Source: Rhodospirillaceae bacterium (GTDB taxonomy: Bacteria > Pseudomonadota > Alphaproteobacteria > Rhodospirillales > Rhodospirillaceae). From it: a DNA stretch of 35,967 nt. Below the pieces are notes generated by a model. The model was given only the letters and a program-made list of their open reading frames with translations. It was not told the DNA's origin and searched no databases. The translations under genes were made by a program, and so were the position numbers. The stretch is taken from positions 1-35,967 of the forward strand of contig JADZAK010000221.1 of NCBI GenBank assembly GCA_020852595.1, in the 5' to 3' direction. Every line of letters begins with the position of its first letter. Within the stretch, counting starts at the first letter, position 1. Shown in pieces: positions 23,660 through 35,967 of this stretch.

Positions 23660-25765
23660 ATGAAGCGCCCTCCGAACGCGGCCTCGCCGGACTTCATCAT
23701 CGAAGACAATCCGGAATATAACGACGAGCTGCGCACGGCTCTTCTCATCGGATTCCACCTTCGACGGGGAGTTCATCTCGCCGCAATCAAGATGTTAGAG
23801 CCTGCGCTGATTGAGTTTGACGCGGCGCTCAAGGCTTGCCCAACTTTTGGCGAGGCGTGGCTTTATCGTGGTCTGACGCTTCGCCTTCTGAAGCGTTTCG
23901 ATGAAGCGTGTGTATCATATGAAAATGCGGCGGTGCTCACGCCGATGTTTGCCGAAGCGCAGGATAATCTCGCGACGCTTGCGGCGGCATTGGGCCGCAT
24001 TTCTTCGATTTACATTCCCTGGCTCACGGCTCGGCGCCCCAATCTATTGCGCCGCTTGTATCACAAGCTTAGGAAGCGCTTTACGCAGTCGGTTGTGGAT
24101 GAAACGCAGTATTTGGAGACAGAAAAGGACCTGCGAGAAGCCTTTTCTCGCGCCTATGACTCACCGGAAATAGCGACAAAACTCGCCTTCTGCCTGCAAC
24201 GTCAACGGCGCGAAAAAGAGGCGGAGAGTTTCTTCCGCTATGCCCTTTTTCTGGAGCCATGGACTGGAAGTGCGGCTGCCGGCCTCTGCAACATTTTAAA
24301 CTCCGCTTCTCGCACCGATGAGGCGCTGGCGGTGGCCGGCGATGCCGCCCGTGCTGGAAGTTTGGACTCTCGTGTTCCGGCGTTGGCATACGCCTCCGCG
24401 GTGCGCGAGGTGGAATGGGGACAAATAAAATTGTGGCGCGAACAGGCAATTGCCGCTTTCCGGCGCGATGCGCGTTCAGCAGCCGGCAATGCCTATTTTC
24501 TTCTCGATGATCCCGCGCTTCATCGGCAGGCGGCGGAAGCCTTGTTTCGGCTCTTCAAGGCGGCCAGCCCAGAGATGCCAGCAAACTTTCGTAGATCGGC
24601 GCAACGCCGAATTACAATCGGCTATATTTCACCTGATTTTCGCGACCATCCTGTCGCACGCTTGATCGCTGAAGTTTTCGAACTTCATGACCGCCGCCGG
24701 TTCAAGGTTATCGGTTATGGCCTCATTCCGGACACCGGCTCCGAGATCGGCGATCGCATCCGCAAGTCGTTTGACAAATTTTTCGATGTCTCCGCGCGGT
24801 CGCCCCGCGCATGCGTCGAAGCGATCCGCGCCGACGGCGTCGACATCCTCATCGACCTCGCAGGAAATACAGCCAATGGGCCAAATTCAATCATGATCCG
24901 GCGTGCGGCGCCGGTTCAGGTGAATTACCTCGGCGATCCGGGCACATCTGGAAGCCCGAATGTCGACTACATCGTTGTTGATGAAACGGTCGCGCCGGCC
25001 GAACACAAGGCTTGGTATTCGGAGGCGCTGGTGCATCTCCCGGACTGCTACCAGGCCAATGATCGCAAGCGCGCCGTTAGCGAGAAATTCCGCGCGCGCA
25101 CCGATTACGGCTTTCCGGCCGAGAGCGTCGTTTTTTGTGCGTTCAACGAACCAAGAAAGGTTACACCGGAAATCTTCGGCGCCTGGATGCGCATCCTTTC
25201 GCGCGTGCCCGGCAGCTTCCTCTGGCTCTACACCCCGACCGATAAAGTCGCGGAGAATTTCAAAGCGGAGGCCGCAAAACGTGGTTGCGATATCGCGCGG
25301 CTAAAGTTCGCATCGCGGTTGCCGAACGCAGAGCATTTGGCCCGTTACTATGCCGCCGATCTTCTGCTCGATACGCCGATTTATAACGGGCACACGACTG
25401 CGAGCGACGCGTTGTGGTGCGGCTGTCCAGTGCTCACGATCATGGGACAAGCTTTTCCCGCACGCGTTGGCGCCAGTATCCTTCGCGCAGCGGGCCTGCC
25501 CGAACTGGTGGCGACAACACTGCCGGAATACGAAGACCTCGCCGTGCGCATTGGATTGAACGGTGAGTTTCGCCGCGATCTTCGTCGCCGGGTGGAAGGG
25601 GCGAAAACATCCTGCGCCCTGTTTGATACCCCGCGCTTTGTTCGCCAGCTGGAGTGGGCGTTTGAGCATATGTGGAGCGCATACCTCAACGGCAGCGCTC
25701 CGGCGCCCTTCGCGGTTCCGCCGCTGAAGACCGATTTGAAAGCCGAGAACGGGCATGGCGATTGA
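23660..25765 (+). CDS. TPR / O-GlcNAc-transferase-like glycosyltransferase (GT41), copy 1
   Basis: A 701-aa cytosolic protein with TPR-like helices (about 45-125 and 180-240) and a C-terminal GT41 (OGT/SPINDLY) domain from about 315. The catalytic-domain landmarks are YISPDFRDHPVARL (His330), FCAFNEPRKVTPEIF with the conserved Lys, and the nucleotide-sugar site YNGHTTASDALW. The usual GYPGT of the family reads GDPGTSG here (Asp426), unlike its paralogue. GT41 enzymes attach GlcNAc or another sugar to Ser/Thr of proteins. It overlaps the next gene by 11 nt. A/T at third codon positions looks more common than in neighbouring genes. The target is unknown; the adjacent pilus proteins are candidates. 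Confidence 0.88.
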   Translation: MKRPPNAASPDFIIEDNPEYNDELRTALLIGFHLRRGVHLAAIKMLEPALIEFDAALKACPTFGEAWLYRGLTLRLLKRFDEACVSYENAAVLTPMFAEAQDNLATLAAALGRISSIYIPWLTARRPNLLRRLYHKLRKRFTQSVVDETQYLETEKDLREAFSRAYDSPEIATKLAFCLQRQRREKEAESFFRYALFLEPWTGSAAAGLCNILNSASRTDEALAVAGDAARAGSLDSRVPALAYASAVREVEWGQIKLWREQAIAAFRRDARSAAGNAYFLLDDPALHRQAAEALFRLFKAASPEMPANFRRSAQRRITIGYISPDFRDHPVARLIAEVFELHDRRRFKVIGYGLIPDTGSEIGDRIRKSFDKFFDVSARSPRACVEAIRADGVDILIDLAGNTANGPNSIMIRRAAPVQVNYLGDPGTSGSPNVDYIVVDETVAPAEHKAWYSEALVHLPDCYQANDRKRAVSEKFRARTDYGFPAESVVFCAFNEPRKVTPEIFGAWMRILSRVPGSFLWLYTPTDKVAENFKAEAAKRGCDIARLKFASRLPNAEHLARYYAADLLLDTPIYNGHTTASDALWCGCPVLTIMGQAFPARVGASILRAAGLPELVATTLPEYEDLAVRIGLNGEFRRDLRRRVEGAKTSCALFDTPRFVRQLEWAFEHMWSAYLNGSAPAPFAVPPLKTDLKAENGHGD

Positions 25766-27860
25766 TTTCAAACGTCTAAAAGAAACTGCCGTCACCGAGG
25801 GACTGCTCCTTTCGGACGCAGAGATCGATCAGGCGCGCGTCGCGGTCCAGATGCGTACGCGCCTGAACGACGGGATTAGGTTTGGCGCAGACAATAAGTT
25901 TCACGAGGCTCTCAAGGCGATCGACGAGGCGCTAAGACTTTCGCCGATGTCGTCGGAAGCATGGATGTGTCGCGGCCTCGCCCTTGAGCAAATCAAACAG
26001 TTCGATCTGGCCTGTGATGCGTATGCTCAAGCCGTTATCTTCACCCCCTTGTATGCCGAGGCGCAAGAAAGGCTGGATGAACTGGCGCCGCCTCTCGGAC
26101 GCCCATCTGCCATTCTCACGCCGTGGGTTGGGAAGCCGTCGCCTCCCTTGGGCGCACGCGAATTTCATAAGCTAAAAAAGAAGCTCGGTTTTCGTGAAAA
26201 ATGGCGGTTTGAAATTATAGAGGGGTCCGAGGAGGGTCTGCGGCGCGAATTACTGGAAGCGCCGACCTCGGTTACGCGGATTTTTAAATTGGCCCAACGC
26301 ATTCGCAAATTGGGTCGATATCTCGAGGCGGCTCATTTCCTGCGCTATGCTTTGCAGATGGCGCCCTGGCACGGCGAATCTGCTGCGTTGCTTTGCGCTA
26401 CTCTGGAAAACGGTTCAGACGGAGATCAAGTCGAAGGAGTCGCGCTCGCGGCCCTTGAGGCGGGAGCAACCAATGAGCAGCTCGCGCCTTTTGCTTTTTG
26501 GAACAATCACAAGCTTTGCGATTGGCGCAATGAAGCTAAGTGGCGCCGTGAAGCATATTTGGCCGTCCTAAGAAGGCCGGACGCTGCCGCCGCTTTTAAC
26601 GCGCTGCATTTCGCCGACGACCCGGTGATGCATCAGAAATGCGCGGCCAGTTCCGCCGACACTGGATCGCTCATGCTGCCGCGCGGATGGCGCCCTTTGG
26701 AGCGGGCGTTTCGACGAACGCCGGACCGTCCTATTACGTTGGGCTATCTGTCGGCCGATCTCCGCGATCATGCTGTCGCGCGCCTGATTGCCGAAGTTAT
26801 TGAACTCCATGACCGCAGCCGCTTCAATGTGCGCGGATATAGTGTCTTCGATGGAGTTGAATCCCCGTTTCGCCGCCGTATCCGTGGCGCTTTTGACTGC
26901 TTCGTCGACCTCTCGGGCCGGCAAGTCGGCAAGGCCGCGACGCGAATCGCCGACGATGGGGTCGATATCCTGATCGACCTCACGGGGCATACAAAAAGCT
27001 CGCCAACCTCGATTCTCCTGCTGAAGCCGGCACCGATCCAAGTCAACTATCTAGGGTATCCCGGCACATTAGGTACGTCTGCTGTGGACTATATCATCGT
27101 AGATAAGGCCGTTGTGCCAAGCGAGCGGCAATCATGGTTCAACGAGCGGCTTGTGCATATGCCCGATTGTTATCAGGCGAACGATCGTAAACGCGAAGTC
27201 AGCGAAAAGATGCGCGACCGCACGGACCATGGTTTTCCTGCCGACGCCGTTGTGTTTTGCGCCTTTAACGATCCGCGAAAATTAATGCCGGATATCTTCG
27301 ACGTATGGATGCGTATTCTCGTGCGCGTCCCAAACAGCTTCCTATGGCTGTATTCTCCTGACGAGCGAATAACCGAGAACTTGAAACGTGAAACAACAGC
27401 GCGAGGCGTTGATGTAGAACGCCTCAAATTTGCGCCGTTCGCGCCTCAGGCCGAGCATCTTGCGCGCTATCATGCTTGTGATCTCTTCCTCGATACGCCG
27501 ATTTATACCGGCCACACGACGGCGAGCGACGCGCTTTGGAACGGTTGCCCGCTTGTCACGATCGCTGGTAATTCCTTTGCAGCCCGCGTCGGCGCGAGCA
27601 TTCTGCGCGCGGCCGGTTTTCCAGAACTCGTGACCACGTCATATGCGGAGTACGAGGAGCTTGCGGTTAGCATCGGCCTTGACGCTGGATTGCGCCGCGA
27701 CCTGCGCAAGCGGATCGAGGCGGCGCGGGACACCTGCGCTTTGTTCGACACGCCCCGGTTCACCCGCCACCTGGAATGGGCTTACGAGCATATGTGGGAC
27801 GAATATGTCGCCGGTCGCGAGCCTCAATCTTTTGAGGTACCTTCACTGCCGCGCCCGTAA
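25755..27860 (+). CDS. TPR / O-GlcNAc-transferase-like glycosyltransferase (GT41), copy 2
   Basis: Also exactly 701 aa and clearly a tandem paralogue of the preceding gene. The C-terminal 250 residues align almost without gaps, while the TPR half is much more divergent. It has a TPR-like region at about 50-115 and GT41 motifs YLSADLRDHAVARL (His339; HP changed to HA), a normal GYPGT (Tyr435), FCAFNDPRKLMPDIF and YTGHTTASDALW. The start overlaps copy 1 by 11 nt, implying translational coupling and possibly a working pair with different targets. The product should be cytosolic. Substrate and sugar donor are not deducible. Confidence 0.88.
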   Translation: MAIDFKRLKETAVTEGLLLSDAEIDQARVAVQMRTRLNDGIRFGADNKFHEALKAIDEALRLSPMSSEAWMCRGLALEQIKQFDLACDAYAQAVIFTPLYAEAQERLDELAPPLGRPSAILTPWVGKPSPPLGAREFHKLKKKLGFREKWRFEIIEGSEEGLRRELLEAPTSVTRIFKLAQRIRKLGRYLEAAHFLRYALQMAPWHGESAALLCATLENGSDGDQVEGVALAALEAGATNEQLAPFAFWNNHKLCDWRNEAKWRREAYLAVLRRPDAAAAFNALHFADDPVMHQKCAASSADTGSLMLPRGWRPLERAFRRTPDRPITLGYLSADLRDHAVARLIAEVIELHDRSRFNVRGYSVFDGVESPFRRRIRGAFDCFVDLSGRQVGKAATRIADDGVDILIDLTGHTKSSPTSILLLKPAPIQVNYLGYPGTLGTSAVDYIIVDKAVVPSERQSWFNERLVHMPDCYQANDRKREVSEKMRDRTDHGFPADAVVFCAFNDPRKLMPDIFDVWMRILVRVPNSFLWLYSPDERITENLKRETTARGVDVERLKFAPFAPQAEHLARYHACDLFLDTPIYTGHTTASDALWNGCPLVTIAGNSFAARVGASILRAAGFPELVTTSYAEYEELAVSIGLDAGLRRDLRKRIEAARDTCALFDTPRFTRHLEWAYEHMWDEYVAGREPQSFEVPSLPRP

Positions 27861-28100: not shown

Positions 28101-29351
28101 ATGAGCGTGCTCTACAAGGCCTTGCAGAAGGCCGAGAAAGAAAACGAGCTGCGCCAATCAGCATCCGAATCCGGTTTCGATCCGAGCCGCCTGGCGGCGT
28201 CTGGGGCTCTGAAGGCCACAGGCGGACGCGGCCTGATGCTGAACCGTGTCGCCATGGCGGCGATTTTTATCGTCGCCGTCGGCGGCGGTGTCGCGTTCGT
28301 GATGTTCCAGGACAGCCTGATACCCCCTGCCGGTCCGCAGGTTGCAAGCGCGCCTCCGCCGGCCCCTTCCGTCATGCAGCCGCCTGCCGCGGCCGAGCTT
28401 GCGGGGGCGGCGCCAACAGCGCCTGCGCCCGCAGCGGCGCCCGTAACCGATGCGTCTCAACCGGCGCAGCCTTCCGCGCCCGTGCCGGCGGAGCCGAACG
28501 CGGCGGAAACACAAGTTGCCTCGGCCCCGTCTGAGGCGTCCAAGGCGGACGCGCCCAAAACGGATGCGCCCAAAACGGATGCGCCCAAGACGGATGAGCC
28601 CAAGGCCGACCCGTCCAAGCCGGCCGCTTCGCGTACGCCTCAAAAACCTGAAGCCATGCCCACGCTCGCGGCGAATTCGCCCGCGCGTATGCTCAGCCCT
28701 CCCATTTCCATCAGCCGCTCGGAATTCGCGCTGGCGGGTGTCGGCAATCAAGTGACCGTGCGTGAAGTGTCGAAAACCGCGCGCTCCAACGCCGCCGCGG
28801 GCTATGACGCGCTGATCCGCGGCTCTTACGACATGGCGCTCGGTTTTTATGACGACGCCTTGAAGGAAGAGCCCAGCAGCATTCTCGCGTTGCTCGGCCG
28901 GGGCGCAGCGCTTCAGAAACTCGGTCGCGGCCAGGATGCGCAAGGCGCCTACGAAAGTGTGCTGAAGCTCGACCCGGAAAATCGTGAAGCGCTCACAAAT
29001 CTAACAACCGTCGCCGCCGAACGCGCGCCGCAGGAGGCGCTCGCACGTTTGCTGGATCTCGAACGGCAATACGCGACCTTCAGTCCCATCAAGGCCCAGA
29101 TCGGCCTGGCTTACGCCAAACTCGGCTCGCTGCCGCAGGCGCTCGATTACTTCCGCCGCGCGCTCGCGCTCGCGCCAGATACCGTCATGTATCAGTACAA
29201 CATGGCGCTCGTGCTCGATCACCTGGGCCGCCGCGACCAGGCGGTCGCGAGCTACGAACGCGTGCTCGCGTCGATCTCCGGCGGCCGTGGTCCCATCGAA
29301 CTGTCCGCGACCGAGATCGAACGCCGGGTGCGGTTCCTGCGGGCCCGTTAG
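28101..29351 (+). CDS. Membrane-anchored TPR protein of the pilus locus (MshN-like)
   Basis: This 416-aa protein has a short cytosolic N-terminus (MSVLYKALQKAEKENE) and one transmembrane helix (about 49-68). A Pro/Ala/Lys-rich linker follows (about 75-220), including three exact APKTD repeats, then C-terminal TPR units (about 230-410, e.g. LALLGRGAALQKLGRGQDAQ). Architecture and position before an ExeA/MshM-type ATPase match MshN, a bitopic protein of MSHA-type pilus systems (similar in layout to GspB partners of ExeA). The linker would span the periplasm or peptidoglycan. It is separated from the next gene by 14 nt. Orthology to MshN is inferred from context. Confidence 0.75.
   Translation: MSVLYKALQKAEKENELRQSASESGFDPSRLAASGALKATGGRGLMLNRVAMAAIFIVAVGGGVAFVMFQDSLIPPAGPQVASAPPPAPSVMQPPAAAELAGAAPTAPAPAAAPVTDASQPAQPSAPVPAEPNAAETQVASAPSEASKADAPKTDAPKTDAPKTDEPKADPSKPAASRTPQKPEAMPTLAANSPARMLSPPISISRSEFALAGVGNQVTVREVSKTARSNAAAGYDALIRGSYDMALGFYDDALKEEPSSILALLGRGAALQKLGRGQDAQGAYESVLKLDPENREALTNLTTVAAERAPQEALARLLDLERQYATFSPIKAQIGLAYAKLGSLPQALDYFRRALALAPDTVMYQYNMALVLDHLGRRDQAVASYERVLASISGGRGPIELSATEIERRVRFLRAR
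28551..28610 (+). repeat. 15-bp coding tandem repeat (APKTD)
   Basis: Four consecutive 15-bp units (GCGCCCAAAACGGAT-type at 28551, 28566 and 28581, and a degenerate one at 28596) encode APKTD three times and EPKAD once in the linker of the TPR protein. Such repeats can change linker length by slippage. Confidence 0.8.
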
Positions 29352-29365
29352 GCCGGGGGCGGGGC

Positions 29366-30382
29366 ATGCCATACCTCGGTCATTTTGGGCTGAAAGAACA
29401 TCCGTTCACGCTCACGCCCAATACCAATCAATATTATCCGACCGAGAAGCACACCGAGATCATCCAGTCGATCCTGTTTGGAATCGCGCGAAATACCGGC
29501 ATCCTGAAGGTCGTGGGCGAGGTCGGCACAGGCAAGACGATGTTGTGCCGGCTGCTGCTGCGCAAACTCGTCGGGTCCAACGATGCGGTCGCTTATCTCA
29601 ACGCGCCGCAAGTCGATCCCGAAAGCATCGTCACGCTGGTCTGCGCCGAATTCGGCATCGAGACGGGCTCGCGTTCGCAGATGCTCCAAGGCCTGAACAC
29701 ATTCCTGCTCGAGCAGCACGCATTGGGCCGCAACGCCGTGCTGATCGTGGATGAAGCGCAGGCGCTGGGCGCCGCGGGTCTCGAAGCCGTGCGCCTTCTT
29801 TCGAACCTTGAAACCGAGCGCAGCAAACTCCTGCAAATCGTGATGTTCGGGCAATCGGAACTCGACGATCTTCTGCGGCAGCCCAATCTGCGCCAGATCA
29901 ATCAGCGCATCGGTTTCGCTTTCAACACCGGTCCGCTGAACGTCGCCGAGGCGGTGCACTATATGGCGCATCGCGTGCAGACCAGCCGCATCGCCGGCAT
30001 CGAATTTCCGATCTTCTCCGAGGCCGCGATGGCCCGCATCGCGAACGCGGCGAATTTTGTGCCGCGCGTCATCAACATTCTCGCCGACAAGGCGCTTCTG
30101 GTGGCCTACGGTGCGGGCGCGATTCAGGTCACCGAAAAGCACGCCGAAGGCGCCATCGCGGACAGTCCGCAACTCGTTCCCAAGCGAAAGAGGCGCAGCA
30201 CAGGGCCAATCTGGTACGCGGGCCTCGCCGCCGCGGTTGTCCTCGCCGCGGTGATATTTGCCGCCAGCCCGCCGCTGCGGGACTTGACAAAAACCGCCTA
30301 TACGCGCGCTCAGAACGCCTTCGGGATTGCCGCTCCCCCGGCGTCGGCCGCGAACCCGCCGGTTACGGCCAAGCCGCAATAG
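29366..30382 (+). CDS. ExeA/MshM-type AAA ATPase
   Basis: This 338-aa protein starts MPYLGHFGLKEHPFTLTPNTNQYYP, the signature opening of ExeA/GspA/MshM ATPases. It continues with Walker A GEVGTGKT (51-58) and Walker B VLIVDEAQ (125-132), plus a sensor region ending in RVINILADKALL. A basic stretch KRKRR is followed by a transmembrane helix (about 275-297) and a short periplasmic tail. In ExeA-like proteins the longer periplasmic part binds peptidoglycan; here it is only about 40 residues, as in MshM-type forms. It is thought to help insert the secretin. Its stop abuts the next ATG directly (TAG-ATG). Confidence 0.88.
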   Translation: MPYLGHFGLKEHPFTLTPNTNQYYPTEKHTEIIQSILFGIARNTGILKVVGEVGTGKTMLCRLLLRKLVGSNDAVAYLNAPQVDPESIVTLVCAEFGIETGSRSQMLQGLNTFLLEQHALGRNAVLIVDEAQALGAAGLEAVRLLSNLETERSKLLQIVMFGQSELDDLLRQPNLRQINQRIGFAFNTGPLNVAEAVHYMAHRVQTSRIAGIEFPIFSEAAMARIANAANFVPRVINILADKALLVAYGAGAIQVTEKHAEGAIADSPQLVPKRKRRSTGPIWYAGLAAAVVLAAVIFAASPPLRDLTKTAYTRAQNAFGIAAPPASAANPPVTAKPQ

Positions 30383-31129
30383 ATGATCCCGATTCAAGCG
30401 CCACTGCCCCTTAGCGTGCTTCCCATCGTGATCGTGCTGGGTCTGATTTTCGGAAGCTTCATTACAGCGCTCACCTACCGGCTGCCGCGCGGCATCGGCA
30501 TCGCGAAAGGCAGGTCGGCCTGCCCCTCGTGCGGCGCCACGCTCACACCGAAGGATTTGGTGCCGGTGTTCTCCTGGGTGATGCACGGGGGAAAATGCGG
30601 TCACTGCGGCGCGCGCGTGTCGTGGCGCTATCCCGCAACCGAATTGCTGATGGTGCTGTTTTTCAGCGTTGCGGCGCTTACCGTCGAAGATCCGATCCGT
30701 CTCGTTACTATTTTGGCGGCGACGCCGGTGATGATGGCGCTCGCGATCATCGATCTCGAACATCGGCGCTTGCCCAACAGCCTGCTGGCGGTCCTCGCGG
30801 CCCTCTTTATCGCGCTGCGCGCCGCCGGCGATGGCGATTACATCACGGCGGCGACCGCGTGCATCCTGGTCTTCGTCTCGGCGCTCGCGTTGGATGCCGC
30901 CGGCCGGCGGCTTATCCGTCAGGGGCTCAGCATGGGCGATGCGAAACTGATGGCGGCTGCGGCCCTGGCGCTACCGCCGGTTCCGCTGCTGACGGCTCTT
31001 GGCCTCGCCGGGGCCGTGGGGGCGGGGGTGGCGCTTCTGCCCTGGATGCAAAACCACAGGCGGGGGAGCCATTTTGCCTTCGGCCCGGTGCTTTTGCTGG
31101 CCTTCTGGTGCGCCATTATCACGCTGTAA
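30383..31129 (+). CDS. Prepilin peptidase / N-methyltransferase (A24, PilD-like)
   Basis: A 248-aa polytopic membrane protease. The N-terminal domain carries the zinc motif Cys47-x2-Cys50...Cys72-x2-Cys75 within the methyltransferase-type region (PRGIGIAKGRSACPSCG). The catalytic aspartates are Asp124 in AIIDLEHRRLP and Asp186 in LSMGDAKLM (usual GxGD; here SMGD). It cleaves class III prepilin leaders at Gly and should process the prepilin at 35026 and any others. It is directly adjacent to the ATPase gene. Between it and the secretin lies a 199-nt gap with one stem (31147-31166) but no gene. Confidence 0.93.
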   Translation: MIPIQAPLPLSVLPIVIVLGLIFGSFITALTYRLPRGIGIAKGRSACPSCGATLTPKDLVPVFSWVMHGGKCGHCGARVSWRYPATELLMVLFFSVAALTVEDPIRLVTILAATPVMMALAIIDLEHRRLPNSLLAVLAALFIALRAAGDGDYITAATACILVFVSALALDAAGRRLIRQGLSMGDAKLMAAAALALPPVPLLTALGLAGAVGAGVALLPWMQNHRRGSHFAFGPVLLLAFWCAIITL

Positions 31130-31146
31130 TGTGGCGTTGGCCTACG

Positions 31147-31166
31147 GGCCGGCCAGGGTTCCGGCC
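31147..31166. other. GC-rich stem in the gap before the secretin gene
   Basis: GGCCGG-N8-CCGGCC begins 18 nt after the peptidase stop. No T-run follows. It may reduce read-through or process the transcript so that the secretin has its own expression level. No other signal is clear in 31130-31328. Confidence 0.3.
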
Positions 31167-31328
31167 TTGGTTTGCAACGGCCCGCATGCTACCTGTTAGA
31201 TGGATTGGGGTGTGCTTAAAAGGCCGCGTGATTTCGCGCGCCGGTATGCATCAACTCCGCGGGGGAAATAGAGGCCGGCGGCGTCAATCCGCATCGGGCC
31301 TTGGCGAGTTTGGTACGGGGGATATTTC

Positions 31329-33350
31329 ATGATGGGCGCTGGAATTCTTTCGGCCGTCGCGGCCGCGAAGCGGCTGCGTTCAGGTGTCGCGCTGGCGGCG
31401 GTCACCGCGATGCTTAGCTCGTGCTCCGGCGCTCATTTCAACGATTACGATACCGCCGGGGGGATCGACAAATCTGAGTACGCGAATCTCCTGGGCCGCC
31501 GTGGTCCGGAGAATAAGCCCGCCGAGGCCGCGGGCGCCGAGCCTCCCATTCCGGGCTTCCAATCTGTCGTCGCGGCGCCGTCGGCGCCCGAACTCGCCGA
31601 CACGCGGCGCGTCTCGATCTCGGTGACGGAAACCACGCCCGTGCGGGACATCCTGATCGAACTCACGCGCCGTGCCGGTGTCGATCTCGAAATGGATCCA
31701 CGCATCGGTGGCGGCATCATCATGACCGCGACGGATCGTCCGTTCATCGAGGTGATCGAGCGTATCGCTGAGTTGGCGGAGCTTCGCTACAAGATGGAAC
31801 GCAATACGTTGCGTGTGGAAATCGACGATCCGTACCTCGAACAGTACCGGATGGACGTGCTCGACGTAACGCGGTCGTCGTCCTCTACCGCGAGTTCTTC
31901 CTCCGATGCCGCTTCGGTTGCGGCCGCATTGGGCGCGGCCGGCGGCGGTGGCGGCGGCGGATCGAACCGCTCTGCGACCAGCGTCAATCAGACGTCCGAC
32001 TCCAATTTCTGGAGTACCATTGGCCAGAACATCACCGAAATTCTCGGTAGCATCCAGACGCGGCGCAGCCGCCAGCAGGCGGCGATTGACGCCAGCTTTG
32101 TTCCGCAAACTGCGGCGGCGACGACTGTCCCTGCGGCTGGTGCTACGCCGGCTGCGGCGCCCGCGCGGGGAGCCGCGGGAGGCGGGGGGGGAGGCGGCGC
32201 ATTGCCGGCGCAAGCCGCGGCGCTGACTCAGGGGCGCCAGCAACAGCTCGACGCCATGTTGAAGGAAGATCAGGGCAATTTGACGCCGCCGACTGAGCCC
32301 GCTGCTGCACAACAATCGACGCCGAGCGGGGCGGGCCCGGTGGCAAATAGCCGCTTCAGTCTCAATCCGCAGGCCGGCATCATCACTGTCTTCGCCACCC
32401 GGCGCCAGCAGATGGCAATTGAGCGTTACCTGCGCGACGTACGCGCCGCAGTCAACCAGCAGGTGCTCATCGAAGCAAAGATCGTGGAAGTCACTCTCAA
32501 CGACCAATATCGCGCGGGCATCGACTGGAATGCCGTGTTCGGTCCGGGCGGCGACCTGCGGTTCCCGGCCACCAATGACAATTTGAAGATCGGCACCAAT
32601 TTCACCCGCGAAGTTGTCCCCGCGACTCTGGCCGATCCGACGTTCACCGCGGCGTGGATGAACGACGGCGATTTTAGTCTCGCCCTGCAACTCGTGCGTC
32701 AGTTCGGCACTCTGCGTACGCTGTCGAGCCCGCGCCTGACGGCGCTCAACAACCAGGTCGCGATCCTTAAAGTCGCGCAAAATCAAGTCTTCTTTGATCT
32801 GGACGTGACATTCACGGAAGCCACACAGCCCAATCAGCGCGACCGCTTGACGGTCGACAGCCAGATCAAGACGGTTCCGATCGGGATGATCATGAGCGTC
32901 CAGCCCGCCATCGATCCGATTTCGCGGCGTATTTCGCTCAGCATGCGTCCCTCCATTACGCGCGTGACCGGCTACGTCAACGATCCCGGCGTCGCGGTGA
33001 GTATTGCCTTGGCGCAGCAGATCAACAGCTCGACCCCGATCGTGTCGTCGCCAATTCCGATCGTCGAAGTCCGTGAAATGGACTCCCTGGTGACCATGGA
33101 ATCCGGTCAGACCGTCGTGATGGGCGGGTTGATGCAGGAAGACGTGCAGAACACGCGCGAGGGACTCCCGGGCATCATGGACGTTCCGCTTGTCGGCAAG
33201 GCGCTGTCGCAGGACATCAAGCAGAACAAGGTGACCGAACTCGTCGTGTTCATCCGGGCGACCTTGGCTAATGCGCCGGAAACGATTTCCGACGAGGACA
33301 TTCGTCTCTACAAGACTTTCACCCCGGATCCGCGGCCGATCGTTTTCTAA
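31329..33350 (+). CDS. mshL: Secretin lipoprotein, MSHA-type (MshL-like)
   Basis: A 673-aa precursor with lipobox MLSSC (Cys32). Residues about 90-170 form an N0/STN-like domain (VSISVTETTPVRDILIELTRRAGVDLEMDP). YRMDVLDVTR precedes Ser-rich and Gly-run low-complexity segments (about 178-215 and 275-300). A second short N-domain is followed by the secretin core from about 360 (QVLIEAKIVEVTLNDQYRAGIDW), ending with VVMGGLMQEDV...PLVGKALSQ...ELVVFIRATL. It forms the outer-membrane channel for the pilus or secreted substrate. The order differs from the classic mshL-M-N. A GGGGGAT precedes the start. An ATG 3 nt downstream is an equal alternative. Confidence 0.93.
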   Translation: MMGAGILSAVAAAKRLRSGVALAAVTAMLSSCSGAHFNDYDTAGGIDKSEYANLLGRRGPENKPAEAAGAEPPIPGFQSVVAAPSAPELADTRRVSISVTETTPVRDILIELTRRAGVDLEMDPRIGGGIIMTATDRPFIEVIERIAELAELRYKMERNTLRVEIDDPYLEQYRMDVLDVTRSSSSTASSSSDAASVAAALGAAGGGGGGGSNRSATSVNQTSDSNFWSTIGQNITEILGSIQTRRSRQQAAIDASFVPQTAAATTVPAAGATPAAAPARGAAGGGGGGGALPAQAAALTQGRQQQLDAMLKEDQGNLTPPTEPAAAQQSTPSGAGPVANSRFSLNPQAGIITVFATRRQQMAIERYLRDVRAAVNQQVLIEAKIVEVTLNDQYRAGIDWNAVFGPGGDLRFPATNDNLKIGTNFTREVVPATLADPTFTAAWMNDGDFSLALQLVRQFGTLRTLSSPRLTALNNQVAILKVAQNQVFFDLDVTFTEATQPNQRDRLTVDSQIKTVPIGMIMSVQPAIDPISRRISLSMRPSITRVTGYVNDPGVAVSIALAQQINSSTPIVSSPIPIVEVREMDSLVTMESGQTVVMGGLMQEDVQNTREGLPGIMDVPLVGKALSQDIKQNKVTELVVFIRATLANAPETISDEDIRLYKTFTPDPRPIVF

Positions 33351-33383
33351 AGGTTTCTTGCGGTTCCCAAGGACTGTTGGGTC

Positions 33384-34130
33384 ATGTTGGCAACGGTTCG
33401 TCTTGTAGTCCTCACGGCCCTGCGCAACCGGCTTTTTGCCGGATTGCTCTTCGCATTGGTCGGCGCTACCTCACTTTCCGTTTTTCTCGGCGGCACCGCG
33501 CTCCTCGAACAAGAGCAGGCGGTTGTCGTCTTCGCCGCGGGCGCTGGGCGCGTCGTCCTGGTCGTTGGGCTCGTTGTGTTCGTCGCTTTCCACGTTCAAA
33601 GCATGATCGAAACGCGCGAGGTCGAAGGCATTTTGGCGCGCGCTCTCGCGCGGAGCGCTTTCGTCGTCGGCTATTGGTCGGGCTTCGCGCTGGTGACGTG
33701 CGCTTTTGTCGGCGGCCTCGCGGCCGCGCTTTGGACTGTGGCGCCGAGCGCCAATGGAATAGTGATTTGGAGTTTCTCGCTCCTGCTTGAATGTTGGATC
33801 GTTGTGGCGGTCGCGATCTTCTCGGGGTTGATGCTCGAACGCGCGACGTCCTGCGTGATCTTTACCCTCGGCTTTTATGCGCTCGCGCGCCTCATGGGGC
33901 TTTTTCTCGGTATCCGCGATTTCATGGCCGATGCGCGCGACATCAAAGCTTCGGACTACGTGGTGGACGCGCTGGCGCTCATCATGCCGCGGCTCGATCT
34001 TTTCGCTCAAACGGGATGGCTGGTGTACGGGCAGAACGGCGAGTTGTTGTTTCCCTTTGTCCAAGGAATCGTGTTTTTGGCGCTGGTGTTGGCGGCGTCG
34101 GTCTTTGATCTTTCCCGTAGGCAGTTCTGA
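33384..34130 (+). CDS. ABC-2-like membrane permease subunit within the pilus locus
   Basis: A 248-aa protein with about six transmembrane helices (about 5-35, 48-72, 95-120, 128-150, 155-175, 222-242). It begins LATVRLVVLTALRNRLF and has the cytoplasmic coupling-like segment SMIETREVEGILARALARSAFVVGYW, the layout of ABC-2/NosY-type permeases. No ATPase gene is adjacent. It is 33 nt behind the secretin and shares one base with the next gene (TGATG), so it is cotranscribed with the pilus genes. AAGGA lies upstream of the ATG. An ABC permease is not part of the canonical MSHA set, so its role here is open. Confidence 0.72.
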   Translation: MLATVRLVVLTALRNRLFAGLLFALVGATSLSVFLGGTALLEQEQAVVVFAAGAGRVVLVVGLVVFVAFHVQSMIETREVEGILARALARSAFVVGYWSGFALVTCAFVGGLAAALWTVAPSANGIVIWSFSLLLECWIVVAVAIFSGLMLERATSCVIFTLGFYALARLMGLFLGIRDFMADARDIKASDYVVDALALIMPRLDLFAQTGWLVYGQNGELLFPFVQGIVFLALVLAASVFDLSRRQF

Positions 34131-34837
34131 TGTTCGGTAAGTCGGACGTCGGCAAAGTCCCGCTCCCGCTCGCGGCTCTTTGCTTTGTTCTGGCGTGCGC
34201 GCACGCAAGCCTCGCGAGCCTTAATCGAAACATTCACGCCAGTCCGCCCGTCTTATCGCCGCCGCCGGGCGACCTCTCGCGCAAAGCCTTGGCATTCGGG
34301 GACGATCAATTTTTGTATCGCCGGCTCGCGATCGATTTACAGAACGCCGGTGACGGCGCCGGAGCGGTAACGCCGATCAGTAATTACAATTACGATTATG
34401 TGATGGGTTGGCTGCGCGCGTTGTCCGAACTCGATCCGAAAGCCAATCACCACTTCATGCTCGCCGGTAGATATTTCTCATTTACAAAAAACAACATCGA
34501 TCTCCGCCGCGTCATCGATTTTATGGTTGAGAAAGCGTCTGCCGATCCGCGGCGCCATTGGTTCTGGCTGACACGCTGCATCGAGCTTGCCGATCATCAT
34601 CTTGGCGACACCGAATATGCGCTCCGTATTGCGCGCCTCGCGGCCGGCTATGATTTTCCAGATATGCCCTCGTGGATTTGGATGTTCCCGGCCTTGCTTT
34701 TCGAAAAGCTCGGCCGATTCGAAGAGGGGTATGACGCCATAGAAAAAGTCCGCGCGGAAAAGTTGAGCCGCCTAACCCATGAAGAAATCAATTGGCTCAA
34801 CGAAGTTTCCCAGAGATTGAAAACGAAATCACGGTAA
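34130..34837 (+). CDS. Unknown TPR-like exported or anchored protein
   Basis: A 235-aa protein with an N-terminal hydrophobic segment (about 11-30, LPLAALCFVLACAHASLASL), possibly a signal peptide or anchor. A helical C-terminal part shows helix-turn-helix repeats reminiscent of TPR/SEL1 (FLYRRLAIDLQNAGD, YVMGWLRALSELDPKANHHFMLAGRYF, EYALRIARLAAGYDFPDMPSWIWMFPALLFEKLGRFEEGYDAI). The start is coupled to the permease stop (TGATG). I do not recognise a named family. Coupling suggests it works with the permease. The following 188 nt (34838-35025) are A/T-rich and without a gene, and should hold the prepilin promoter. Confidence 0.7.
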   Translation: MFGKSDVGKVPLPLAALCFVLACAHASLASLNRNIHASPPVLSPPPGDLSRKALAFGDDQFLYRRLAIDLQNAGDGAGAVTPISNYNYDYVMGWLRALSELDPKANHHFMLAGRYFSFTKNNIDLRRVIDFMVEKASADPRRHWFWLTRCIELADHHLGDTEYALRIARLAAGYDFPDMPSWIWMFPALLFEKLGRFEEGYDAIEKVRAEKLSRLTHEEINWLNEVSQRLKTKSR

Positions 34838-35025
34838 AACGCGGTACGGTTGCAATGCTTTCGCCCCCCTAACTAATCTTTATCCATTTGAATTATATCA
34901 ATAAATCGACATCAAAAGAGGCTAGTGCAAAACATTGAACCTGTGTTAAAAAGGACCGAGATTGGGATATAGGGCGATCCGTTCGGACTGCGCTAGAAAA
35001 GCATTCAGATTTCGGGGGTTTCAAA

Positions 35026-35808
35026 ATGCCAAGTTACATGTCGCGTGATCAGCGGGGCTTTACGCTGATCGAAATGTCGATTGTGCTGGTGATCATCGGA
35101 TTGATCGTCGGCGGGATCTTGAAGGGTCAGGAAGTGATCGAAAGCGCGCGCCAGAAAAACGTGGCCGCCATGTACGATCAGATCCGCGCCGCGCAGAACA
35201 CCTTCGTCGATCGGTATCGCGCGCTCCCGGGTGACTTCAATGAAGGCAGCACCAAGATTTCCGCGCAGGTTCCCAATGGTGACCGCAACGGCTTCATCGC
35301 CGCGGCCGCTGGCGTCGCTGCGTCGAATGCGGCCGCGATCGCGGCCATCGACGGTGGCGCGGGCGAGTTCTTCGGCTACTTCCAGGGCCTCGTTGCCGCC
35401 GGCCTGTACGGCGGTGGCCAGGTCGCGTCGACCAGCAGCGGTATGTCGGTGTTCTCCGGAACCGCGACGCCGTCGCCGTTGCCGCAGGCGCCGTGGAACA
35501 ACACCGGCTTCACCGCCGCGTCCGGCACGCACGAAGGTCAAACGGCCGCTCCGGCGTCCGCTTTGACCGCTGTGTGGCTGCGTTTGGCGGGGGTCACCGA
35601 CGGGATCTCCGCTGCTGCCGATGCCGCTCTGACGGGCGCGAGTGCTTACCAGATCGATCAGAAGTTTGACGACGGTGTTCCCGGCCTCGGCCGCATCCGC
35701 AACACCGGTAAGCTCGCGACAGGGGTGTGTGGTGACGCTGAAACCGCTTACACTGTCACCGCTTCGACCGAAACGCGCGAGTGCGATCTTCTCTTCGCTG
35801 TCGACTAA
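35026..35808 (+). CDS. Major type IV prepilin (MSHA/type II pseudopilin-like)
   Basis: A 260-aa prepilin with leader MPSYMSRDQRG, cleaved before Phe(+1). The mature N-terminus FTLIEMSIVLVIIGLIVGGILKG has the conserved Glu(+5) and hydrophobic helix, followed by QEVIESARQKNVAAMYDQI. The body contains GDFNEG and a Ser/Thr/Gly/Ala-rich middle (TSSGMSVFSGTATPSP). Two C-terminal Cys, 20 residues apart, could close a D-region loop. CGGGGGT precedes the start; a second ATG at codon 5 would leave a 7-residue leader. A strong terminator follows, consistent with a separately expressed, abundant subunit. It is probably processed by the peptidase at 30383. Confidence 0.92.
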   Translation: MPSYMSRDQRGFTLIEMSIVLVIIGLIVGGILKGQEVIESARQKNVAAMYDQIRAAQNTFVDRYRALPGDFNEGSTKISAQVPNGDRNGFIAAAAGVAASNAAAIAAIDGGAGEFFGYFQGLVAAGLYGGGQVASTSSGMSVFSGTATPSPLPQAPWNNTGFTAASGTHEGQTAAPASALTAVWLRLAGVTDGISAAADAALTGASAYQIDQKFDDGVPGLGRIRNTGKLATGVCGDAETAYTVTASTETRECDLLFAVD

Positions 35809-35835
35809 GCGTTTCCTTGACGTAGTGGTTTAAAA

Positions 35836-35871
35836 GAGTGCGGAAGGTATCCTTCCGCACTCTTTTTCTTT
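35836..35871 (+). terminator. Strong rho-independent terminator after the prepilin
   Basis: A 12-bp perfect stem GAGTGCGGAAGG (35836-35847)/CCTTCCGCACTC (35851-35862) with a TAT loop, followed by TTTTTCTTT. It ends the prepilin transcript 27 nt after the stop. Confidence 0.95.
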
Positions 35872-35916
35872 AGCCTCGGCGATGCCGTGCAAAGTGGCGG
35901 TGCTGAGAAGTTCACG

Positions 35917-35967
35917 ATGGCAGCGGCCAGGCGATATAAAGCGGGATTCAGCGCCCTCCAGATGGTC
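35917..35967 (+). CDS. Start of a further prepilin-like gene (cut by window end)
   Basis: Seventeen codons are visible, reading MAAARRYKAG then FSALQMV. A short basic leader ending in Gly followed by Phe-Ser-x-Leu is the layout of a class III prepilin signal. Position +5 is Gln where Glu is usual. A weak GAGAAG lies upstream. It sits directly after the prepilin terminator in a pilus locus, where minor pilin genes would be expected. With so few residues this is an inference. Confidence 0.4.
   Translation, partial: MAAARRYKAGFSALQMV

Follow-up and report, generated by a model that had tools for sequence, protein, structure and literature searches.

In Myxococcus xanthus, the genes pilG, pilH and pilI lie in one operon with pilA, and their products have been described as parts of an ATP-binding cassette (ABC) exporter (PMC3546991). 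The available portions of further reports describe PilGHI as essential for the passage of pilin across the inner membrane (PMC3724824) and as required for pilus assembly and PilA export (PMC3924187), and state that deletion of pilGHI impairs pilus-driven (S) motility and that pilI spans at least 250 codons (PMC5544727). Matches to PilGHI have been listed in almost all bacteria studied, by the authors' own statement without supporting experimental data (PMC6060248). Here we analyse a stretch of 35,967 nucleotides from the uncultured alphaproteobacterium Rhodospirillaceae bacterium (the window is this whole stretch), whose right-hand end encodes type IV pilus genes together with a predicted ABC permease. 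Compared by description rather than by sequence, PilGHI appears to be the nearest described analogue of this arrangement. We consider it probable that the window contains the left half of a single chromosomal locus, which would encode a complete and retractable type IV pilus with a built-in three-part ABC transporter that would handle pilins. A pilus-linked ABC transporter is already known from M. xanthus; what the present sequences appear to add is a comparable module in a wide second set of loci.

The other system that the locus calls to mind is the mannose-sensitive haemagglutinin (MSHA) pilus. According to the accessible text of Denise et al. (2019), an mshA-type pilin, mshE, mshG, mshL and mshM are mandatory in the MSH model, all MSH loci lack a prepilin peptidase, and the system is named in Gamma- and Epsilonproteobacteria and Chrysiogenetes (PMC6668835). 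Type IV pili have been reported in basal Rickettsiales (PMC9352585) and type IV pilus genes in Micavibrio (PMC3189940), and the available portions of these two reports mention no ABC module. Among the literature matches listed from openly licensed PubMed Central papers (titles and starts of abstracts), there was no description of such a combination of pilus and ABC transporter in Alphaproteobacteria, and no paper in the same collection was found to join MSHA, Alphaproteobacteria, type IV pili and MshL.

Pilus genes of the window and of contig C144

The window is the entire contig C223 of a 259-contig genome, and the contig end adjoins a pilin gene. Its last 7.9 kb hold seven plus-strand genes between positions 28101 and 35808 (Table 1), with small gaps save for 199 bases 5′ of the secretin gene and 188 bases 5′ of the pilin gene. 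A preliminary description of this DNA had named these seven genes, all of which we recovered, followed by the start of a further prepilin, for which a whole-genome search gave no N_methyl match after position 35808. It had also predicted an MshE/GspE-type ATPase and an MshG/GspF-type platform gene beyond the end of the stretch; both turned up elsewhere in the genome, on contig C144, which was located by a whole-genome search for the extension ATPase, platform and prepilin families.

Starting at its edge, the minus strand of C144 carries a pilin gene without a start, then a third pilin-like gene and the genes for an extension ATPase, a platform protein, three proteins of the alignment type and an ABC ATPase. 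PilT, PilU, a tetratricopeptide repeat (TPR) protein and a further prepilin are encoded convergently to this motor operon. The extension ATPase matches T2SSE (406.6 bits), MshEN (58.8 bits) and the cyclic di-GMP (c-di-GMP) motif model NF053729 (65.7 bits; cut-off 38), and the platform protein matches T2SSF (190.5 bits). PilT (458.9 bits) and PilU (425.5 bits) both pass the TIGR01420 test for retraction ATPases (cut-off 319.1), and the ABC ATPase (ABC_tran, 75.7 bits) has intact Walker A, signature and Walker B motifs. The three alignment-type proteins, which have the size and layout of MshI/J/K or PilM–P, returned no match in Pfam and none of weight in NCBIfam; their assignment, made from gene order and helices, is provisional.

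The startless pilin gene on C144 shares its first 43 bases exactly with a part of the pilin gene in the window, which suggests an assembly break in a tandem pilin repeat. Both halves share one contig, in unchanged order, in five relatives (G019, G026, G001, G008 and G039), from which we infer that C223 and C144 belong to one retractable type IV pilus locus; the two contigs would then be neighbours in the genome.

Two side observations concern C144. Its third pilin-like protein (L018:17053-17682) is without a GFxxxE-type start, which the orthologues in G026, G008 and G020 retain. The N-terminal half of the TPR protein beside PilT (L018:7012-8160) recalls a lytic transglycosylase by eye; a PDB search gave no support for this, and the two matches returned when a lysozyme-like fold was sought (E = 0.0028 and 0.0079) were both to Tet4 Variant.

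Table 1 Features of the right-hand end of the window, with the evidence for each assignment.
Feature	Position	Strand	Basis
MshN-like protein, one membrane helix, C-terminal TPRs	28101..29351	+	TPR_1 68.1 bits; hydrophobic segment at residues 50-68
ExeA/MshM-type AAA ATPase, C-terminal hydrophobic helix	29366..30382	+	AAA_22 90.1 bits; Walker A GEVGTGKT
Prepilin peptidase (PilD type)	30383..31129	+	A24_N_bact 95.7 bits, Peptidase_A24 43.9 bits, both above cut-off
MshL-like outer-membrane secretin	31329..33350	+	Pfam Secretin 94.4 bits, above cut-off
ABC-2-type permease subunit, 248 aa, six hydrophobic segments	33384..34130	+	Family profile match to PmtD
Putative accessory protein of ABC module, N-terminal hydrophobic helix	34130..34837	+	Position after permease
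Prepilin, likely major pilin	35026..35808 (start may be ATG 35038)	+	N_methyl 34.2 bits, GFTLIEMSIVLVIIGLI
Possible terminator, hairpin then T run	35832..35868	+	By eye, in the 159 bases 3′ of 35808

Several details qualify the entries of Table 1. Homologues of the first TPR protein are present in 8 of 10 relatives (the contig of G007 starts later, and G036 has other genes there), and the best NCBIfam model for the ATPase that follows is TIGR03015, at 209.6 bits under its cut-off of 324.5. The prepilin peptidase has two CxxC pairs and a DLEHRRLP stretch; it is one of two Peptidase_A24 matches genome-wide, and its gene is found in relatives' loci as well. The prepilin carries the N-methylation motif, pilin models match it over N-terminal stretches only, and no MshA model matched it in the Pfam and NCBIfam scans. 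A consensus terminator scan does not list the possible terminator and showed that such sites are not enriched in the region, and an Rfam scan of the window returned one tRNA and nothing further.

The predicted ABC transporter genes and their linkage

The permease (gene at 33384), the accessory protein (34130) and the ABC ATPase of C144 look like three parts of one ABC transporter. Neither of the two window proteins has a match in Pfam or NCBIfam. A 47-row profile of the permease family, which has a conserved PRLDL...QT.W motif, matches the solved ABC permease PmtD over positions 3-167, about two thirds of the length (E = 1.2e-4), and the next PDB matches have E-values of 0.35 or worse. The preliminary description had called this protein an ABC-2-like permease; the PmtD match is in keeping with this, and what the description missed is that the permease would be one of three transporter parts. 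The nearest solved structures to the ATPase are ABCA-type, Rv1218c and NosF (E = 5.6e-30 for NosF), the NCBIfam models that score highest for it, DrrA and NodI, stay far under cut-off, and the PmtA model gives 97.5 bits (cut-off 350). The accessory family profile found no convincing match in PDB (best E = 0.85).

A search of genome contigs with the permease yielded 65 named loci, all selected by the permease, which are titled mostly Alphaproteobacteria, Rhodospirillaceae, Micavibrio, Rickettsiales or plain Proteobacteria metagenome-assembled genomes (MAGs), plus strain Rhodospirillaceae bacterium LM-1. With linkage counted on stop positions, the accessory gene directly follows the permease in all 65; the secretin is directly upstream of the permease in 61 of the 63 loci with room for it, a pilin lies downstream in 49 of 54, and the ABC ATPase comes after the MshK-like gene in every locus with that gene in view (35/35). 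The motor operon and the secretin–permease–accessory–pilin block are both intact across differing Rhodospirillaceae-like and Micavibrio-like gene orders. The ABC ATPase, ABC-2 permease, accessory factor and pilin are found in one pilus locus, which in the genome of the window is split over two contigs, and conservation of the gene set across taxa, a question raised in the preliminary description, was confirmed in relatives' loci and in the named loci. One of these, L113, is titled Candidatus Marinimicrobia and has a locus of the window's genus; it is probably a mislabelled MAG.

When 61 genomes were searched with the permease, 11 gave matches (own included), and the same motor is present in 10 of these; in the remaining one, G006, the contig runs past the pilin into unmatched genes. 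In five genomes (G020, G021, G031, G059 and G030), a motor of at least 54% identity is accompanied by no permease match. The contigs of G020, G021 and G031 stop before the permease's place, that of G031 being 3.4 kb long and those of G020 and G021 having the ABC ATPase, and the motor region of G059 was miscalled by the gene caller and counts neither way. In G030, the pilus locus is present and the permease, accessory gene and linked ATPase are all missing; there is no genome-wide permease match, and the pilus locus is separated by about 4 kb from an ABC ATPase that scores only 76 bits. This joint absence, a single case, suggests that the three genes form one unit.

The permease family profile found matches in 13 of 385 class genomes and in 46 of 398 phylum genomes; the first count includes the window's own genome, the second that genome and two of the class. 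The weakest matches in the phylum, with E near 1e-4, are perhaps generic ABC-2 proteins. Among 13 further stretches from the class (L091-L103), the permease was called in 12 (not L096), with the accessory gene beside it in 11 of the 12. In six of seven regions from other classes (L104-L110), the permease gene adjoins the accessory gene, and six contain a pilin gene, L104 being the exception both times; five of the seven have a strong ABC ATPase match (not L105 or L110). A plasmid search with the permease gave no match.

In the nearest relative, RHODO3, the permease is 93% identical, and the ratio of nonsynonymous to synonymous divergence (dN/dS) between it and the window is 0.056 for the permease, 0.051 for the accessory gene and 0.054 for the secretin; values are 0.018-0.026 for platform and motor, 0.131 for the TPR protein and 0.198 for the peptidase. 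A lone permease of unrelated function was rejected on account of this linkage and constraint.

The substrate of the module is a separate matter. It might export something else needed at the pilus, namely a lipid, a polysaccharide, a small peptide or a pilin-modifying factor; among solved structures, the closest relatives of its parts carry annotations as exporters of phospholipid (ABCA) and of peptide (PmtD), and genes for glycosyltransferases of family 41 (GT41) adjoin the window locus and lie inside that of LM-1. We regard this alternative as doubtful, given that the permease and accessory gene sit between the secretin and pilin genes at the frequencies given above and that the available text links PilGHI, the analogue described in M. 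xanthus, to the export of PilA (PMC3924187).

A number of points weigh against a pilin-handling transporter built into a single pilus locus. The genome is a fragmented MAG in which C223 and C144 are not joined. The ATPase and permease lie in separate operons, and their pairing rests on co-conservation and joint absence. Loci selected by the permease show the company it keeps, not how frequent it is among pilus loci, and even among them the secretin is not upstream of the permease in L119 and L173 (2/63), and no recognised pilin lies downstream in L118, L119, L121, L140 and L160 (5/54); nor was one recognised within the stretch read in L091, L093, L094, L095 and L098. One class genome, G363, has two permease copies: the first (L093) is beside a secretin and an accessory gene, and the second (L094) is without an adjoining accessory gene, with PilT and PilU nearby. 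Finally, as G030 shows, pili of this type do not all need the ABC unit.

Affiliation of the pilus

The locus had initially been described as an MSHA pilus with a rearranged gene order, and in a true MSHA pilus the permease would be a chance neighbour. Homologues of the mandatory mshE, mshG, mshL and mshM are indeed present, as is an MshN-type gene, and profiles of these mshE, mshG, mshL and mshM homologues also match their counterparts in five MshL-family loci. Among NCBIfam models the secretin is closest to MshL (TIGR02519, 205.4 bits, against 100.2 for GspD and 71.2 for PilQ), a score that nevertheless falls under the curated MshL cut-off of 250.2. Of five loci chosen by an MshL above the cut-off, four show the classic L-M-N-E-G order and the fifth, G447, a variant, and profiles detected no peptidase, permease or PilT gene in the 18-20 kb read of any of them; by contrast, prepilin peptidase, PilT and PilU are built into the present locus.

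We then turn to phylogeny, where reference rows for MSHA, PilB and GspE were picked by curated NCBIfam cut-offs (MSHA by its secretin). The careful motor tree has 52 rows, three long rows having been dropped (the MSHA row of G447, the genome's own GspE and L109); it omits 9 of the 12 motor rows of the named loci, which are copies of included rows, and contains no Myxococcota or Desulfobacterota motor. In this tree, 22 alphaproteobacterial motors and 2 from other classes form one clade (100/100), and PilB (14), GspE (10) and MSHA (4) each form separate clades, that of MSHA with support of 100/100. MSHA is the nearest neighbour (96/85), which is what a rearranged MSHA pilus would lead one to expect, but the approximately unbiased (AU) test does not reject grouping with PilB (p = 0.125) or GspE (p = 0.154). 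A quick 55-row motor tree gave the clade a support of 98, with the MSHA row of G447 beside it on a very long branch. In a quick secretin tree, 17 alphaproteobacterial secretins group together (93), apart from 15 MSHA rows (10 distinct) that have no supported clade of their own (23). We therefore set aside MSHA membership on the basis of the sub-cut-off secretin, the prepilin peptidase in the locus and a motor outside the MSH clade. Considering also that 10 of the 11 permease-positive genomes share the same motor, a rearranged MSHA pilus with a chance permease is unlikely.

A type II-like secretion system in place of a pilus is more improbable still, and we give it very little credence. The best match of the platform protein is indeed GspF (329.8 bits, against a cut-off of 424), and the motor scores nearly equally against GspE (483.7 bits; cut-off 630.25) and PilB (507.5 bits; cut-off 675.65); all these values are under cut-off, as is that of the secretin against GspD (cut-off 351.35). 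Retraction ATPases of the PilT and PilU types lie within the locus, and the genome has a separate set resembling a type II secretion system, with a secretin, a platform and four prepilin-type genes on contig C17 and a further T2SSE gene on C105. The motors also stand apart from the 10 GspE rows, although the AU test leaves that grouping unrejected. On these grounds a type II secretion system was rejected as the identity of the locus. The preliminary description was right to recognise, in an alphaproteobacterium, a pilus machine of the secretin/ExeA type that includes a prepilin peptidase and an additional membrane protein.

A further-reaching interpretation, which we offer tentatively and as a whole, is that the locus represents a distinct lineage of type IV pili, being neither MSHA, classic type IVa pilus (T4aP) nor type II secretion system, in which the ABC transporter is an integral, ATP-consuming motor for pilin insertion or release in the inner membrane, and that this module is common to pilus loci of other proteobacterial classes and to myxobacterial PilGHI. 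If this were true, there would be two kinds of type IV pili, with and without an ABC pilin handler.

Proposed mechanism and comparison with known systems

In the retractable pilus that we favour, the MshL-like secretin, its MshM- and MshN-type partners, the dedicated prepilin peptidase and the pilin would make up the window's half of one pilus gene set. The ATPase and permease would together form an inner-membrane transporter of the ABC-2 type. The accessory protein would sit on the periplasmic side of this transporter, and ATP would be spent on moving or releasing pilins into an assembly-competent state; this pilin-moving step is drawn from analogy with PilG, PilH and PilI of M. xanthus. The pilus would extend by means of the MshE-type motor with its MshEN (c-di-GMP-type) domain and be retracted by the PilT and PilU motors, and its use could be surface attachment or twitching.

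Neighbouring genes offer further observations. Two tandem genes for 701-aa proteins that combine TPR and GT41 domains lie directly 5′ of the pilus genes (window positions 23660-27860); such genes are also at the locus in RHODO3 (two) and G001 (one), and in LM-1 one separates the pilin from the motor within the pilus locus (L043:13331-15871). Their products are possible pilin glycosyltransferases. Between the accessory gene and the pilin, 40 of the 65 named loci, though not the window, encode a conserved AraC-family protein with a hydrophobic N-terminal half (for example L100:11485-12564, L043:11146-12300 and L092:2026-3183); a Pfam HTH domain was found in all three tested, and one may ask whether this protein is a membrane-bound pilin regulator.

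The role of PilGHI is thinly documented: in their available portions, PMC3724824, PMC3924187 and PMC3546991 all cite the same 1998 study, to which PMC5544727 adds a deletion of the pilGHI cluster with a motility phenotype. A wide second group of pilus loci in which a comparable ABC module occurs would bring new organisms to the question of ABC transporters in pilin handling, among them the Micavibrio-titled genomes and strain LM-1, and G030, which has the pilus locus and not the module, provides a natural comparison.

How the locus relates to described systems can be stated part by part. PmtABCD, the phenol-soluble modulin exporter, is a Gram-positive peptide exporter without pilus context; the likeness to it lies in the match of the permease profile to PmtD and the sub-cut-off match of the ATPase to the PmtA model. 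The NosDFY maturation ABC complex, whose layout is an ATPase, a six-helix permease and a periplasmic partner, is brought to mind by the similarity of the ATPase to NosF, while its partner protein and context differ from those here. With MSH the locus shares MshE-, MshG-, MshL-, MshM- and MshN-type genes in a single locus and an MshEN domain on the motor; it differs in its prepilin peptidase, PilT/PilU, ABC module and gene order, in a secretin under the MshL cut-off, and in motor and secretin trees that give a separate clade. From M. xanthus it differs in having an MshL-like secretin whose partner is of the ExeA type, and in the place of the ATPase gene, which ends the motor operon instead of lying between the accessory and permease genes. 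What it has in common with the M. xanthus T4aP and its PilGHI is a retractable pilus with an ABC ATPase, permease and accessory factor encoded together with the pilus genes.

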